IMG/VR virus record: IMGVR_UViG_3300032309_002930
Location: 1 to 64,000 of that record
Source of the DNA: a virus
Length of the DNA stretch: 64,000 nucleotides
Direction: 5' to 3' (one strand)
The notes beneath the pieces were generated by a model. That model ran no database searches. It was not told the DNA's origin and worked only from the letters and a program-made list of their open reading frames with translations. Position numbers and translations under genes: made by a program. Below, piece by piece: positions 5,188 through 27,046 of the stretch. How positions within the stretch are numbered: position 1 is the first letter of the stretch; each line of letters starts with the position of its first letter.

Positions 5188-5231
5188 ATTAATTATTATA
5201 TAAGAAACAATAAAAAATCTCTAATAAATTT

Positions 5232-5318
5232 CGGGGCGAGTAGGATTCGAACCTACGAATGGATTTCTCCATCGGCAGTTTAGTAAACTGCTGTTTTAAA
5301 CCGCTCAACCATCGCCCC
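5232..5318 (-). tRNA. tRNA-Ser, anticodon ACT
   Basis: This is a class II tRNA with a long variable arm. The acceptor stem pairs GGGGCGA with TCGCCCC, the D stem is GTT/AAC, and the T arm is GTAGG-TTCGAAT-CCTAC. The anticodon stem GCAGT/ACTGC encloses the loop TTACTAA, so the anticodon reads ACT, which would decode AGU. Bacteria normally use GCU for this codon pair, so A34 is unusual. CCA is not encoded. The next tRNA follows two bases away. Confidence 0.9.
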
Positions 5319-5320
5319 AT

Positions 5321-5392
5321 CTCCCAAACTAGGATTTGAACCTAGAACAGCCTCGTTAACAGCGAGGTGCTCTACCATTGAGCTATTTGGGA
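5321..5392 (-). tRNA. tRNA-Asn, anticodon GTT
   Basis: The acceptor stem pairs TCCCAAA with TTTGGGA, the D arm contains AGCTCAATGGTAGAGC, the anticodon stem CCTCG/CGAGG encloses CTGTTAA, and the T arm is CTAGG-TTCAAAT-CCTAG. The anticodon is GTT, reading AAC and AAU (asparagine), which are frequent in this AT-rich genome. CCA is not encoded. Confidence 0.95.
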
Positions 5393-5398
5393 ATAAAT

Positions 5399-7896: not shown

Positions 7897-8328
7897 TTAC
7901 GGAGTTGTGCTGATGACTAGTGTTCCATTAACAGTAAAACCACTTCCTCCATATTGCCATCCAATTAAAGGAATTGATGATCCATTTGAAGCACAATATG
8001 CAGCCTGACCGTCATATGGAATCCAACTACCATACTCTTCATCATATACCTCCATATTAACTCTTAAAAGCCAATAGTTTTGGGAAAAAAAAAGCCTTCC
8101 AAATGATTGATTTTGCGCCCTCCATAAAGTATCGCTTTGCTTCTGATAAGGATTTATAAAATTACCATTTCTATATTGTTCATTTGGAACAAAGGTTAAT
8201 CCAGAAAAATAAAGATTAGGAGTAGAGAGGGGGAGTGTTGTTGGTGCAGCTGATATTCTTTTTCTAGGAACATATAAATTTATTCCTTTTTTAAAGTTTC
8301 CCAATTGGTTTGTTTTTTTGACTATCAT
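7897..8328 (-). CDS. Modular virion protein with shared N-terminal leader, unknown C-terminal domain
   Basis: The 143-residue protein opens with MIVKKTNQLGNFKKGINL, identical over these 18 residues to the next gene upstream (8341-8904). After residue ~30 the two differ completely. Here the C-terminal part is beta-rich (NYWLLRVNMEVYDEEYGSW, WQYGGSGFTVNGTLVIS), as expected for a fibre tip or receptor-contact domain. The shared leader suggests a common docking point in the virion. It is the last gene of this fibre cluster. Confidence 0.7.
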   Translation of the reverse strand: MIVKKTNQLGNFKKGINLYVPRKRISAAPTTLPLSTPNLYFSGLTFVPNEQYRNGNFINPYQKQSDTLWRAQNQSFGRLFFSQNYWLLRVNMEVYDEEYGSWIPYDGQAAYCASNGSSIPLIGWQYGGSGFTVNGTLVISTTP

Positions 8329-8340: not shown

Positions 8341-8904
8341 TTAAAAACCATTTGTATTAGAGTTATAATAATAATATCCTAAACCGTTTGTTGTTTCTAC
8401 TATTGTTGGTGCTGAAAAACCAAGCGACATAACGTCATCGCCGCCACCCTCGCCATATTGTACTCTAATCGGATAATAAGTTCCAGCGACTAAACTTACT
8501 GGCTCTGAATCGACTCTATTCTCTGGATGACCATTGCCATTATTTATATTAGCGTTGGCAGTTGTAAAACCAGCAAGAGCATTTGCGCCAATCCAAAGAT
8601 AACTTGCATCATCAGAGCTTGTATAAAAAGTATAATTTTCAGTTGAACTTGCTTTGAAGTAGCCAAGCCATTGCCAACTATAATTCTCTGCAACATTAGT
8701 GAAACCATTTATACTAGTTAATTGATTAACGTCTCCATGAAGAGTCGCTGTATTAAACCAATTTACATTATCGTTAAAATACCCTTCGTATCTTTTACCA
8801 TACAATCCATTAGCATATGTGATTATAGATGCTCTCCTTTTTGGAGCATGTAAATTTATTCCTTTTTTAAAATTTCCCAATTGGTTTGTTTTTTTGACTA
8901 TCAT
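8341..8904 (-). CDS. PA14-domain virion protein with shared N-terminal leader
   Basis: The 187-residue protein has the 18-residue leader MIVKKTNQLGNFKKGINL followed by a PA14 domain. PA14 features visible are GLYGKRYEGYF, WQWLGYFKASSTENYTFY, SSDDASYLWIG and AGTYYPIRVQYGEGGGDDVMSL. PA14 is a carbohydrate-binding beta-barrel found in adhesins and glycosidases, so this protein may contact host glycans. It lies 12 bases upstream of the second leader-sharing gene. An external location on the tail or fibre is inferred. Confidence 0.82.
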   Translation of the reverse strand: MIVKKTNQLGNFKKGINLHAPKRRASIITYANGLYGKRYEGYFNDNVNWFNTATLHGDVNQLTSINGFTNVAENYSWQWLGYFKASSTENYTFYTSSDDASYLWIGANALAGFTTANANINNGNGHPENRVDSEPVSLVAGTYYPIRVQYGEGGGDDVMSLGFSAPTIVETTNGLGYYYYNSNTNGF

Positions 8905-11989: not shown

Positions 11990-12375
11990 GGGCCCGTAAT
12001 GGTTTCGATTTTAAGAAAATAAATTGAAATGCAAGTGGAGGTTGAATCGAGGACTCCTTAAAAAGTTTCGCTTATATTAACTGCCAAAACAGCTAAATAT
12101 AAAGGTCATATTTCTGCAAGAGTTTCTCTTGTTGAGATGGCCGAATCTGTAGCCTAAGTTACAGCGTGATATCCACGATACATCTACTGGAATATTGCGT
12201 TATTAGATGTTTGAGTATTATAAGTTTTTTTATTCTTATAGTATTCAATATTCAAAATAAAATAGCTAAGTATGTTTGTTCTTTATCTATACAAGGCTAA
12301 AAATAAAAAGAACTAAACTTGTAGTGTTTTAATTTAAATTTTTAAAAGACAGAGGTTCAATTCCTCTCGGGTCCA
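11990..12375 (+). ncRNA. ssrA: tmRNA (SsrA) with a 24-residue tag
   Basis: tmRNA rescues ribosomes stalled on broken mRNA. The 5' end GGGCCCG pairs with 3' CGGGTCC (one G-U) to form the alanine-type acceptor stem. A T arm AGAGG-TTCAATT-CCTCT precedes it, and the conserved AAATGCAAGTGGAGGTTG and ACTCCTTAAAAAG segments mark the tRNA-like and first pseudoknot regions. The resume codon follows the usual UUAACU context: GCC at 12083. The tag frame then runs to TAA at 12155-12157. The tag starts AKTAKYKGHI and ends LVEMAESVA, longer than usual and not ending in LAA. CCA is not encoded. Confidence 0.93.
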
Positions 12376-12406
12376 AGCAAACGAATCCCTGTGTCCGCAT
12401 TTTTAC

Positions 12407-23256: not shown

Positions 23257-24321
23257 TTATAGCTTTAAATCTCCAAAATCTTTGTCTTCTATGTCTGTTT
23301 TTCTTGCGCCAACTTTATAGCTAGAAATCTCAGTTTCTTGAGGAGCAACTTGTACTTTGCTACTATCTAGATAACTATCATGCCATCCACCAATAGGGTT
23401 ATCTTTTTGGTTAAATATCTTCTTATAACCTAAGCTTCTTAGTCTGCTGTCACAAAGCCACTTAGAGTAACCGTCTAGAACCTCTGCATTTAATCCAAGT
23501 AAACTACCATTACTAAAAAGATACTTAGACCATTCACTTTCATTCTTGGCGGCTTGCTCATAAAAAGCATAGATTTTATCTTCGCTTTTCTTGACTATAC
23601 TTGTAAAACCTTCCTTATCTTCATCTCTTAATATTTTGAGTAAATTTTGGCTTACTGCAAAATGAAGAGCTTCATCACGTTGAATGAATTTAATAATTTT
23701 AGAATTGCCTTCCATCTTACCGCGATATCCAAAATAGAAAGAACAAGCAAAAGAAACGTAAAATACAAGACCTTCCATTACGTTGATAGAAAGAATAGCA
23801 TCAAAAATCTTTTGTTTAGGATCTTTCTTCTCGTCATCTCCAAGAATTTTATCAAAGTTATTTCTAATTAACTCTGCGCGACTTGTAATTTCTTTATCTT
23901 CCATAATACTATCAAAAAATTTAGTAGCATCTGGATATACATTATTCAAAAGATAAGAATAAGAATAACTATGAATGCCTTCAAATTGAGCCCATGTATT
24001 CATACAAATCTCAAGTTCTGGATTACTTACGTAGTCTTTAAGAGAATGGATACTTCTGGAAAGCATACTATCGCCAAGAGTTTGAAATCTTAAATTACTA
24101 TCAAAAACAAATCTTTCTGTTTCTGTTAGGTTATTATAATCACTACGATCTTTTCCTAAAGCTATTTCATGAGGCCACCAAAAATTTTCATTTTGTTTTT
24201 TAAATAACTCAAAGAATATTGGGTACTTAAACCGATCATATCTTTGAAGATTAAGATCTTCGCCAAGAAATAATGGTTGTTTAGTAGTATCTATATTTTT
24301 GAAATTTAATACTGTTTTCAT
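23257..24321 (-). CDS. nrdB: Ribonucleotide reductase class I, small (beta) subunit
   Basis: A 354-residue beta subunit that houses the di-iron tyrosyl-radical site. The ligand motif EGIHSYSY (ExxH with Tyr four residues on, matching the radical Tyr position of class Ia) and the second pair ERFVFDSNL / DEALHFAVSQN (ExxH-type) are visible. The C-terminal tail, which docks to the alpha subunit, ends DKDFGDLKL. It lies three bases after nrdA in the same operon. A GTGTAA that overlaps the nrdA stop region lies ten bases before its ATG, which may be chance. Confidence 0.93.
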   Translation of the reverse strand: MKTVLNFKNIDTTKQPLFLGEDLNLQRYDRFKYPIFFELFKKQNENFWWPHEIALGKDRSDYNNLTETERFVFDSNLRFQTLGDSMLSRSIHSLKDYVSNPELEICMNTWAQFEGIHSYSYSYLLNNVYPDATKFFDSIMEDKEITSRAELIRNNFDKILGDDEKKDPKQKIFDAILSINVMEGLVFYVSFACSFYFGYRGKMEGNSKIIKFIQRDEALHFAVSQNLLKILRDEDKEGFTSIVKKSEDKIYAFYEQAAKNESEWSKYLFSNGSLLGLNAEVLDGYSKWLCDSRLRSLGYKKIFNQKDNPIGGWHDSYLDSSKVQVAPQETEISSYKVGARKTDIEDKDFGDLKL

Positions 24322-24324
24322 AGA

Positions 24325-26586
24325 TTATAGTTTACACGCACCACTTGAACAGTCTCTATCTTCTTTTTGGTCTAGTGATTGTTCTCTATCTCCATCGTCT
24401 GTGTTATTATAATAAAGACTAATTAATCCAAGACTATATGCATACATGATTTCTTTCATCACTTTAGCGTCTGGTAATATATTGTTTTCATAATGACTAT
24501 AATTGTAGTATACGTTAGTTGATATAGCCATGTCAATATATTTTTGAATTATTGCATTGATTTTTAATAATCCACTATTATCTTTAAGATCATAAGCTAA
24601 TTCATAATTATCATCATACTTACCAATTCCTGGAACCATTACTGGAAGTTTACCCATTTTACTAGTTTTATAAGTGATAAGACTACGAATAGGTTCAACT
24701 CCATTTGTAGAGGATTGAATAACCGAACTACTTTCACAAGGCATACAGGAAGATAATGTCGAGTGTCTTAAACCATGTTCTTTAATTTGTTTTCTTAGCT
24801 TTTCCCAATCAAGAGATAGTTTTCTTTTACATATTTCGTCTACTTTATCTTTATAAGTATCAATTGGTAATATGCCTTTAGAGTATTTTGTATGATTGAA
24901 TTTTTCGCACTTACCTTTTTCTTTGGCTAATTCTAGACTACTCTTTAAAAGGTAATATTGAAAGTATTCCATCCATTCATCAATTACTGGTAATGACTTA
25001 TCTGAACTATATTTTAATTCATTTTTAGCAAGAAAAGCTGCAAGATTAGTAATACCAATTCCAAGACTTCTACGTTTTTTAGCAAAATTTTCAGCAGCAA
25101 TATTAAAGTAATCTTGAAGTTCAATGATTTCATCAAGAAATCTTACGATAAGATCGCAAGTCTTTTCAAGATCCTGCCAGTTTTTTATTTCTAGCATATT
25201 TACTGCCGAAAGAATACACATACCGATTTCGCCTTCTTTGTCATTGTAATCGTTTAATGGAATAGTTGGATGGATAACTTCTGTGCAAAGATTACTCATT
25301 GTGACTTTATCATACCAAGCTCCATGCTCATTAGCATGATCTACATTAAGAATATAAATACGACCAGTTTCAACTCTTTCTTTAATTATCAAAGAGAATA
25401 ATTTTCTAGCAGACACTTTCTTTTTTAGTTTTAATTTTTTAGATTCACATTCTTTATATACTTTATCAAAGTCTTTAGTTCCCCAAGCTTCGTAAAGCTC
25501 TGGAACTTCTGAATTATTGAATAATGTGATATCTTCATCTTTCAAAACTCTATCATAGAATAATTTACTCATACCAACAGTATAATCAAGCTTACGAACT
25601 CGATTGTCATCTGTTCCAGCGTTATTCTTTAATACAACAATATCTTCAATTTCGTAATGCCACCATTGAATATTGCAAGTTGCGCTACCACCTCTTAAGC
25701 CATTTTGTTGCCAAGCTTTTACGCTACTTTCATAAATTTTTAAAAATGGAATTAAACCAGTATGAACAACTTCTCCATTCTTGATTGGTGATCCAATAGC
25801 TCTAATCTTACTAACATCAATACCAATTCCACATCTATTAGCTGTAGCTATACTAACAGCAGTTGCACTAGCTGTAATACTTTCTCTTGTGTCATCTACG
25901 CCAATTAAACAACAACTAGCATAATTCCTACTAGAAGTTCTTACTCCAGCCATTACTGGCGTTGGTAAATTAATTTTATGCTTACTAATAGCATCATAGA
26001 ATTTTCTTACATAATTCAATCTTGAATCTAATGGATATTTTGCAAAAGCATAAGATGCAATTAATATATAAGCAAATTGTGGAGTTTCATAAATTTGACC
26101 AGTGGTTCTATTTTTAATTAAATATTTATCGCAAAGTTGTTTAATTCCAGCATAAGTAAAAGTAAAATCTCTTTCGTGATCAATGAACTCTCCGATCTTA
26201 TTTATTTCGTCTTCGGAATAATTTTCTAAAATTGAACTATCGTATACTTTATTCTTTATGCCTTGATTTAAAAACTCTAATAGTCTTGGAGCATGTTTTC
26301 CTTTCCAAACGTCTTTTCTTAATTGATAATTTAAAAGTCTAGCAGCAACAAATTGATAATTTGGTTTTTCAGTTGAAATAAGATTAGCTGCACTTTCAAT
26401 CAATAGGTTGTGTATCTCTTTGCTTGTGATACCATCATGTATGTTTATTTTTGCGTTTATCTCTATATCTGTTAGACTTACTCCAGTATAACCATCAATT
26501 GCCCAATTGATAACTTTATTTATTTTCTCTACATCAAATTTTTCTGTTGCACCATTTCTTTTTTTTATAATAACGTTCTTGCTCAT
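24325..26586 (-). CDS. nrdA: Ribonucleotide reductase class I, large (alpha) subunit
   Basis: A 753-residue alpha subunit reducing ribonucleoside diphosphates to deoxy forms. An N-terminal ATP cone (VIIKKRNGATEKFDVEKINK) is present, so activity should be allosterically regulated by dATP/ATP. Catalytic features are YASCCLIGVDD, TANRCGIGIDVS, RGGSATCNIQWWHYEIEDI, NLCTEVIHP (active-site Cys-x-Glu) and SSCMPCESSS. The C-terminal redox pair is in DCSSGACKL. It is full length. Upstream of its ATG no leaderless-type promoter is seen, and the structured RNA unit lies 115 bases or more upstream in the same direction, so read-through transcription is possible. Confidence 0.95.
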   Translation of the reverse strand: MSKNVIIKKRNGATEKFDVEKINKVINWAIDGYTGVSLTDIEINAKINIHDGITSKEIHNLLIESAANLISTEKPNYQFVAARLLNYQLRKDVWKGKHAPRLLEFLNQGIKNKVYDSSILENYSEDEINKIGEFIDHERDFTFTYAGIKQLCDKYLIKNRTTGQIYETPQFAYILIASYAFAKYPLDSRLNYVRKFYDAISKHKINLPTPVMAGVRTSSRNYASCCLIGVDDTRESITASATAVSIATANRCGIGIDVSKIRAIGSPIKNGEVVHTGLIPFLKIYESSVKAWQQNGLRGGSATCNIQWWHYEIEDIVVLKNNAGTDDNRVRKLDYTVGMSKLFYDRVLKDEDITLFNNSEVPELYEAWGTKDFDKVYKECESKKLKLKKKVSARKLFSLIIKERVETGRIYILNVDHANEHGAWYDKVTMSNLCTEVIHPTIPLNDYNDKEGEIGMCILSAVNMLEIKNWQDLEKTCDLIVRFLDEIIELQDYFNIAAENFAKKRRSLGIGITNLAAFLAKNELKYSSDKSLPVIDEWMEYFQYYLLKSSLELAKEKGKCEKFNHTKYSKGILPIDTYKDKVDEICKRKLSLDWEKLRKQIKEHGLRHSTLSSCMPCESSSVIQSSTNGVEPIRSLITYKTSKMGKLPVMVPGIGKYDDNYELAYDLKDNSGLLKINAIIQKYIDMAISTNVYYNYSHYENNILPDAKVMKEIMYAYSLGLISLYYNNTDDGDREQSLDQKEDRDCSSGACKL
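24332..24337 (-). promoter_or_regulatory. GTGTAA element upstream of nrdB (may be chance)
   Basis: GTGTAA ten bases before the nrdB ATG, but inside the last codons of nrdA (ACKL), where sequence is constrained by the protein. Confidence 0.25.
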
Positions 26587-26699
26587 ATTTTCTTTCTAGC
26601 GTAAAGAATAGTTTACAGTATTTTTAATTTTTATAAAAGAAAAATAACTATATTAATGTTAATAACTTCATATCTTAATAAACAAGTGTACTGATCTAA

Positions 26700-27004
26700 T
26701 ATCTTTTCCTAATAAATATTTCCCAATGAGCTCCTTCAAAGCAGAGCTTTCCCTGTGTTTTACCACAAGTTCGCTTGAGCCGTTAGTTCAATTTCCCAAT
26801 TGAGTCCATAAGCCTTTCGGCTCCCTAACACTTATCGGATGTCGGTAGGATCATCCATCGCGTGTTAGCCCTTTCACCTACACTCCCAGAATTTCTTCTG
26901 GTTTCTCAGGTCGCAAGCTCTGTTAGCGTTGCCTGACGTTAAGAACTAATCTAACTCACCATTTTAAGGAGTATGGCAAACCTTTTCGCCTTTCAGCGAG
27001 ATGT
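26700..27004 (-). ncRNA. Structured non-coding RNA of unrecognised class (about 300 nt)
   Basis: The 460-base gap between nrdA and the next gene is more GC-rich than its surroundings and has no ORF. It starts with a consensus promoter (27011-27039), giving a 5' end near 27004. Nested hairpins are visible: CCAGAA-TTTC-TTCTGG (26886-26901), CTAACAC/GTGTTAG (26825-26831 with 26862-26868) enclosing a GGATG/CATCC stem, TCAATT-TCCC-AATTGA (26788-26803), AGCC-GAAA-GGCT, and a long-range CTCCTT/AAGGAG pairing between 5' and 3' parts. I found no RNase P P4 core, SRP, 6S, group I or group II intron signature. The 3' end is approximate. Confidence 0.72.
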
Positions 27005-27010
27005 CGTATT

Positions 27011-27039
27011 ATAATACATCAATAAATATATTTTGTCAA
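27011..27039 (-). promoter_or_regulatory. Promoter of the structured RNA
   Basis: TTGACA (27034-27039), 17 bases, TATTAT (27011-27016). Transcription is expected to start near 27004, just before the first hairpin (TCGC-TGAAAG-GCGA). Confidence 0.78.
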
Positions 27040-27046
27040 ATAAAAT

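Follow-up and report, generated by a model that had tools for sequence, protein, structure and literature searches.

A double-pseudoknot RNA of freshwater phages that carries two identical, jointly changing sequence tags

The 64,000-nucleotide stretch of DNA analyzed here (the window) derives from an uncultivated virus record of 86,885 bases and encodes, on its minus strand, a structured non-coding RNA of ~290 nt (26715-27004; the 3' boundary is inferred from the point at which conservation stops). The RNA represents a previously unlisted class, of a broad kind, structured phage RNA, that is already known. It shows covariation above controls, lacks a conserved ORF when homologues are compared and has its own promoter, as expected for a structured non-coding RNA gene. 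We consider it probable that this is a stand-alone phage RNA that acts in trans, with a scaffold that displays a pair of identical recognition elements to a partner in trans that co-evolves with them. The class is large and well supported; it is missing from Rfam and from the phage genomes on deposit, and all of the sizeable, closely related records that were examined contain it. A conserved RNA gene of lake phages has thus escaped annotation.

The same record encodes a tailed-phage tail protein, a DnaE-type polymerase, a class I ribonucleotide reductase, tRNAs and a tmRNA. As noted in an initial sequence-only reading, the RNA gene occupies a 460-base gap; this gap (26587-27046) is located between a glycosyltransferase gene and nrdA (24325-26586, minus strand; PHROG phrog_84, E 1.9e-288, and Pfam). 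The latter, downstream of and outside the RNA, was the gene used to find relatives; nrdB, also a class I ribonucleotide reductase gene, is at 23257-24321. The gap is not, as that reading had it, the only one over 300 bases, there being four more between ORFs of at least 80 aa, one of which contains the tmRNA. The region is indeed GC-rich, with 45% GC in 26715-27004 versus 28% in the window and 14-19% in the remainder of the gap. The interval between the RNA and nrdA (26590-26700, minus strand) contains an AT-rich element common to two groups of relatives, subfamilies A and B (GTACAC..GTTAATAAC..TTTTTCTTTT..AAAAATACTGTAA), that is perhaps an nrdA promoter or regulator site.

All features of the RNA and its promoter are given below by their window positions on the minus strand. 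The RNA has its own sigma-70-type promoter, with a -35 box (TTGACA, 27034-27039) and a -10 box (TATTAT, 27011-27016) at 17-bp spacing, and transcription is predicted to start at ~27004-27005. To call this promoter perfect, as was originally done, is a slight overstatement given one mismatch in the -10 box, but TTGACA-N17-TAnTAT is kept in ~39 of the 41 homologue clusters described below. The minus strand folds better than its shuffled versions (z -2.5, with 0 of 100 shuffles equally good) but, as the plus strand likewise folds well (z -3.5), folding alone does not decide the strand. That the RNA is read from the minus strand is settled by the promoter, together with an excess of G-U over A-C cells in the aligned clusters (157 versus 89).

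A search with nrdA identified 80 related viral contigs, and these loci were then used for profile searches and to derive patterns from conserved positions. Homologues, ~290-325 bases in length, were recovered at ~125 loci in uncultivated freshwater phages, with 73 distinct full sequences that form 41 clusters at 90% identity. The core pattern had 73 matches in 2.9 million viral contigs, all at loci also recognized by the profiles. The RNA is present in the window and in all 18 related records of at least 60 kb with nrdA identities of at least 87%, and was not detected by the same test in four records with nrdA at 77-79% identity. Covariance-model matches in more distant phages (nrdA at most 81% identical; Pelagibacter phages) were weak, and those linked to nrdA that were inspected proved to be coding sequence after nrdA. 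Searches with blastn gave nothing significant in deposited phages and no match in plasmids, and the five core-pattern matches in bacterial and archaeal sequence (GTDB genomes, 257 Gb) were all attributable to chance.

The homologues form five subfamilies, A (which includes the window), B, C, D and L063, which are distinguished by sequence and by genomic position. The RNA of subfamilies A, B and L063 is encoded immediately upstream of nrdA and in the same orientation, an arrangement that might suggest a cis-regulatory leader or attenuator of nrdA. We disfavor this explanation as very improbable, since in subfamilies C and D the RNA lies behind nrdAB on the opposite strand, adjoining the tmRNA gene, and, even within subfamily A, a 371-aa ORF (L054 4768-6000) separates the RNA from nrdA in L054, a shift of ~1.2 kb. 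The RNA also has its own promoter nearly everywhere. As its location changes and no fixed protein neighbor was found across the loci compared, the RNA most likely stands alone and acts in trans.

Covariation was evaluated for the 41 aligned clusters with a structure of 55 pairs, using shuffled and slid-partner controls. Of the cells in these pairs, 84.3% are paired, compared with 69.3% when shuffled and 31-48% with slid partners, 364 cells are double-changed versus 133.6 in shuffles, and the covariation score is 0.426 versus 0.189 for shuffled and at most 0.10 for slid alignments. The fold of each subfamily has a large covariation term. Ten helices are defined by covariation and give, at the computational level, a compact fold that helix H3 closes and that a pair of pseudoknots, H5 and PK2, lock in place. 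The individual hairpins proposed from the window sequence were largely right. The proposed long-range CTCCTT/AAGGAG closure, however, is not conserved in the alignment, AAGGAG being missing from L033, for example; the long-range contacts of H3, H5 and PK2 take its place.

Helix H3 is 8 bp in length and forms between ATTAGTTC (26943-26950) and GAACTAAC (26782-26789), with seven of its eight pairs double-changed. H3 strands pair over 8.1 bp with their own partner versus 4.4 bp with a swapped partner; the window pair, AUUAGUUC/GAACUAAC, is represented in other phages by UAUCAAUCC/GGAUUGAUA, UUUGUCU/AGACAAA and UUUAUACC/GGUAUAAA. Pseudoknot H5 joins the loop of hairpin H4 (CAGAGCTT, 26915-26922) to AAGCTCTG near the 3' end (26742-26749). 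Six of its eight pairs are double-changed and 92% of the cells are paired, with at least six Watson-Crick bp in 41/41 clusters and a mean of 7.4 bp that falls to 4.05 bp when partners are swapped between dissimilar sequences. Its strand variants include CAGAGCUU/AAGCUCUG, AAGGGCU/AGCCCUU, GAAGACUU/AAGUCUUC and CGCAAGCUUU/AAAGCUUGCG. The second pseudoknot, PK2, pairs GTAGG (26877-26881) with CCTAC inside the H9 loop (26845-26849); 96% of the cells are paired and the variants are GUAGG/CCUAC, GUAGC/GCUAC and GUGG/CCAC. H4 itself (CAGG-CAA-CGC..GCG-A-CCTG, 26907-26935) has 97-98% of its cells paired, five of seven pairs double-changed and a near-invariant CAA/A internal loop.

Of the remaining hairpins, H2 (GCCAU..AUGGU, 26958-26977) has three of five pairs double-changed and 83% of its cells paired, H6 (26886-26901) has five of six pairs double-changed, and the H8/H9 stem-loops (26825-26868) have double changes in four of seven and four of five pairs, respectively. 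H1 (TCGC..GCGA, 26990-26999, with a 3' strand extending to ~26986) has a 4-bp stem in most clusters, formed alternatively by UCGC/GCGA, CCGC/GCGG, GUGC/GCAC or GCCU/AGGC. It aligns poorly across subfamilies and is the weakest helix, with 38% of its cells paired, parts of H8 also being among the weakest. H10 (GCCGAAAGGC, 26812-26821) is predicted, and gives way to longer hairpins in subfamilies B-D. H11 (26752-26769) is part of the predicted fold and was left out of the covariation count.

Outside every covarying helix there are two copies of a 10-nt tag, ATTGGGAAAT in the window. One, R1 (26791-26800), is directly 5' of the H3 3' strand and the second, R2 (26718-26727), is at the 3' end of the conserved RNA. 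R1 and R2 are identical to each other in 41/41 clusters, even though there are eight variants of the tag, with AUUGGGAAGU, AUUGGGAAGA, AUUGGGAAUU, AUUGGAAAGU, ACUGGGAAGU, AAAGAAAAGU and AGGGAAAAAG present in other phages. The tag consensus is UYA..ANNGRRAANN, the repeat is only ~13 nt and the copies are 65-75 nt apart. When changes were counted by parsimony on a tree from which the tags had been left out, each copy had undergone 13 core site changes, plus three at the Y of the UYA that precedes it, and every one of them had its counterpart in the other copy. The alignment has no column that compensates in cis for the tag changes. L064 differs from the rest of its subfamily in both tags with the core otherwise almost unchanged, which argues that nothing inside the RNA compensates for tag changes. 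Gene conversion could in principle maintain the identity of the tags, although their flanking sequences differ and the repeat is so short. A GNRA hairpin within the tag (AUU-GGGA-AAU) fits the window sequence but fails in subfamilies B-D. The loop of H2 partly resembles the start of the tag (ACUC in subfamily A, GUCAAA in B and D, UUAUAGAAAA in C) and is possibly a third, degenerate copy; it does not change in concert with the tags.

Conservation ends 6-10 nt past R2, with no intrinsic terminator seen in the sequence there, and the 3' end of the RNA is therefore placed, by sequence conservation, near R2. Such an end would be consistent with the tags being sites at which a co-evolving endoribonuclease, of phage or host, cuts the RNA, with cleavage at R2 generating the mature 3' terminus and R1 being a second cut; two sites recognized by one nuclease would also need to be identical. 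Cleavage at R1 would, however, part the strands of H3 and separate off a strand of H5, and no nuclease gene accompanies the RNA across the loci. We regard this explanation as improbable.

Searches with 10- and 11-mers for a target of the tag in the DNA or mRNA of the phages, covering the 86.9-kb genome, the fetched loci and 27 related records, revealed nothing conserved. The tag is absent elsewhere in 10/10 subfamily-A records and there is no conserved extra tag site in 17 subfamily-B and -D records, although in both sets the records are often fragments and a missing piece could hold a site. A 13-nt tag match at the start of two virion genes (8298 and 8872) is a coincidence, as L012 retains the match despite having different tags, and complementarity of the tag to the phage tmRNA is at chance level. 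Two neighboring genes have nearly identical first 26 codons (MIVKKTNQLGNFKKGINL..; 8251-8328 and 8827-8904, minus strand) and diverge thereafter, and L012 has the same pair.

As the tags change together, with no compensation in cis and no conserved site in the phage, the simplest inference suggested by these sequence comparisons is that a partner acting in trans recognizes both tags and changes with them. One candidate is a host, rather than phage, transcript with which R1 and R2 would pair as antisense guides, the tags then tracking the sequence of the host target. The presence of identical tags outside covarying helices is consistent with this, several of the tag changes are transitions, which G-U pairing would tolerate, and the failure of the phage searches to find a target leaves the host. 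On the other side, tag positions A1, G4, A7 and A8, which could constitute a structural motif, are invariant across families, a constraint that free antisense evolution would not need, and as an explanation of the RNA as a whole we consider the antisense guide unlikely. Because these four positions never change, a protein is the likelier partner. With a little better than even probability, the trans partner is an RNA-binding protein, either encoded by the phage or a host target such as a defense factor; a host transcript paired by antisense is the next likeliest, as a substantial minority possibility, and otherwise the partner would be a processing nuclease or the RNA would participate in an RNA-only assembly.

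Under the preferred explanation, a stand-alone RNA with a co-evolving trans partner, host RNA polymerase would synthesize the RNA, presumably early in infection, from the strong host-type sigma-70 promoter. The rigid scaffold would display R1 and R2 together as a bivalent surface for recognition. Both tags would bind the same sequence-specific partner in trans, with this partner co-evolving with the tags, and the RNA would so recruit a dimer or two separate copies of the partner, or else sequester them. The more specific proposal, that the double-pseudoknot scaffold is a bivalent address with tags co-evolving base for base with a factor from host or phage that acts in trans, seems to us to have an even chance of being correct, and no description of such a design among known phage RNAs was found in the literature searched. 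The concerted twin tags provide a direct handle on function and a built-in probe for pull-down of the partner, and the eight natural tag variants are ready-made specificity tests.

The initial reading had suggested a structured non-coding RNA of unknown class, a description upheld by the strong covariation among homologues and by comparisons with Rfam 15. Searches of the window and of divergent homologues with the Rfam 15 covariance models, at the gathering threshold and at permissive E-values, matched no family to the RNA, and otherwise gave just the tmRNA and tRNAs elsewhere and chance-level matches. The curated scores were not reached for RNase P, SRP, 6S and group I or II introns, as had been surmised, nor for OLE. 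Likewise, a description of such an RNA was not found in the literature searched. The RNA antitoxins of type III toxin-antitoxin systems, ToxI and phage-borne mimics, are likewise pseudoknotted and contain direct repeats that match one particular protein, but consist of whole ~35-nt pseudoknot units in tandem beside a toxin gene. The RNA described here repeats not a whole pseudoknot unit but just ~13 nt, and no adjacent toxin gene, nor any other constant protein neighbor, is present at the loci.

The phi29 pRNA, a short two-domain RNA of small podoviruses, is also a small, structured, trans-acting phage RNA but has no twin tag, and the RNA reported here has no Rfam sequence match to it. A packaging or self-assembling RNA, resembling pRNA or the GOLLD and ROOL cages, with the tags as inter-subunit contacts, would account for an RNA that is phage-only, ornate, pseudoknotted and universal in its lineage. 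We nevertheless give this only a slender chance, as complementarity to the two identical, non-palindromic tags is found neither between them nor in any segment of the RNA that co-varies. Both GOLLD and ROOL are phage RNAs known to form multimers composed of RNA alone (PMC12286853). GOLLD was originally named for samples from lakes and is also a large and ornate RNA of phages, of unknown function (PMC12286853). It has many members >800 nt, a conserved 3' half and a location near tRNA islands, whereas the RNA here is 290-325 nt and has a twin tag. ROOL is similarly pseudoknotted and phage-encoded, with no protein partner known for it (PMC12286853), but differs in size and layout. The resemblance to GOLLD and ROOL goes no further than being an ornate phage RNA of unknown function, and none of the features defining those two families that were assessed here is present. 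There is no covariance-model match to either, in agreement with the earlier view that there was no basis for assigning the RNA to one of them. Nor is the RNA near phage tRNA islands, as is typical of GOLLD and ROOL; it adjoins nrdA or tmRNA, and the tRNAs of the window are ~21 kb away. These are adjacent tRNA-Ser (anticodon ACT according to ARAGORN) and tRNA-Asn genes (5231-5393, minus strand).

The tmRNA is encoded by the same phages, and is adjacent in subfamilies C and D, yet it is a separate gene. The RNA was not detected as a tmRNA, by ARAGORN or RF00023 or by a tag ORF, and the phage tmRNA was found separately. In the window, the tmRNA (11990-12376, plus strand) has an unusual 24-residue tag, AKTAKYKGHISARVSLVEMAESVA. 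Related phages also encode a tmRNA, and a second group of these has tags like AKSAKLKGSFSLRVSHNKKHLIAA.
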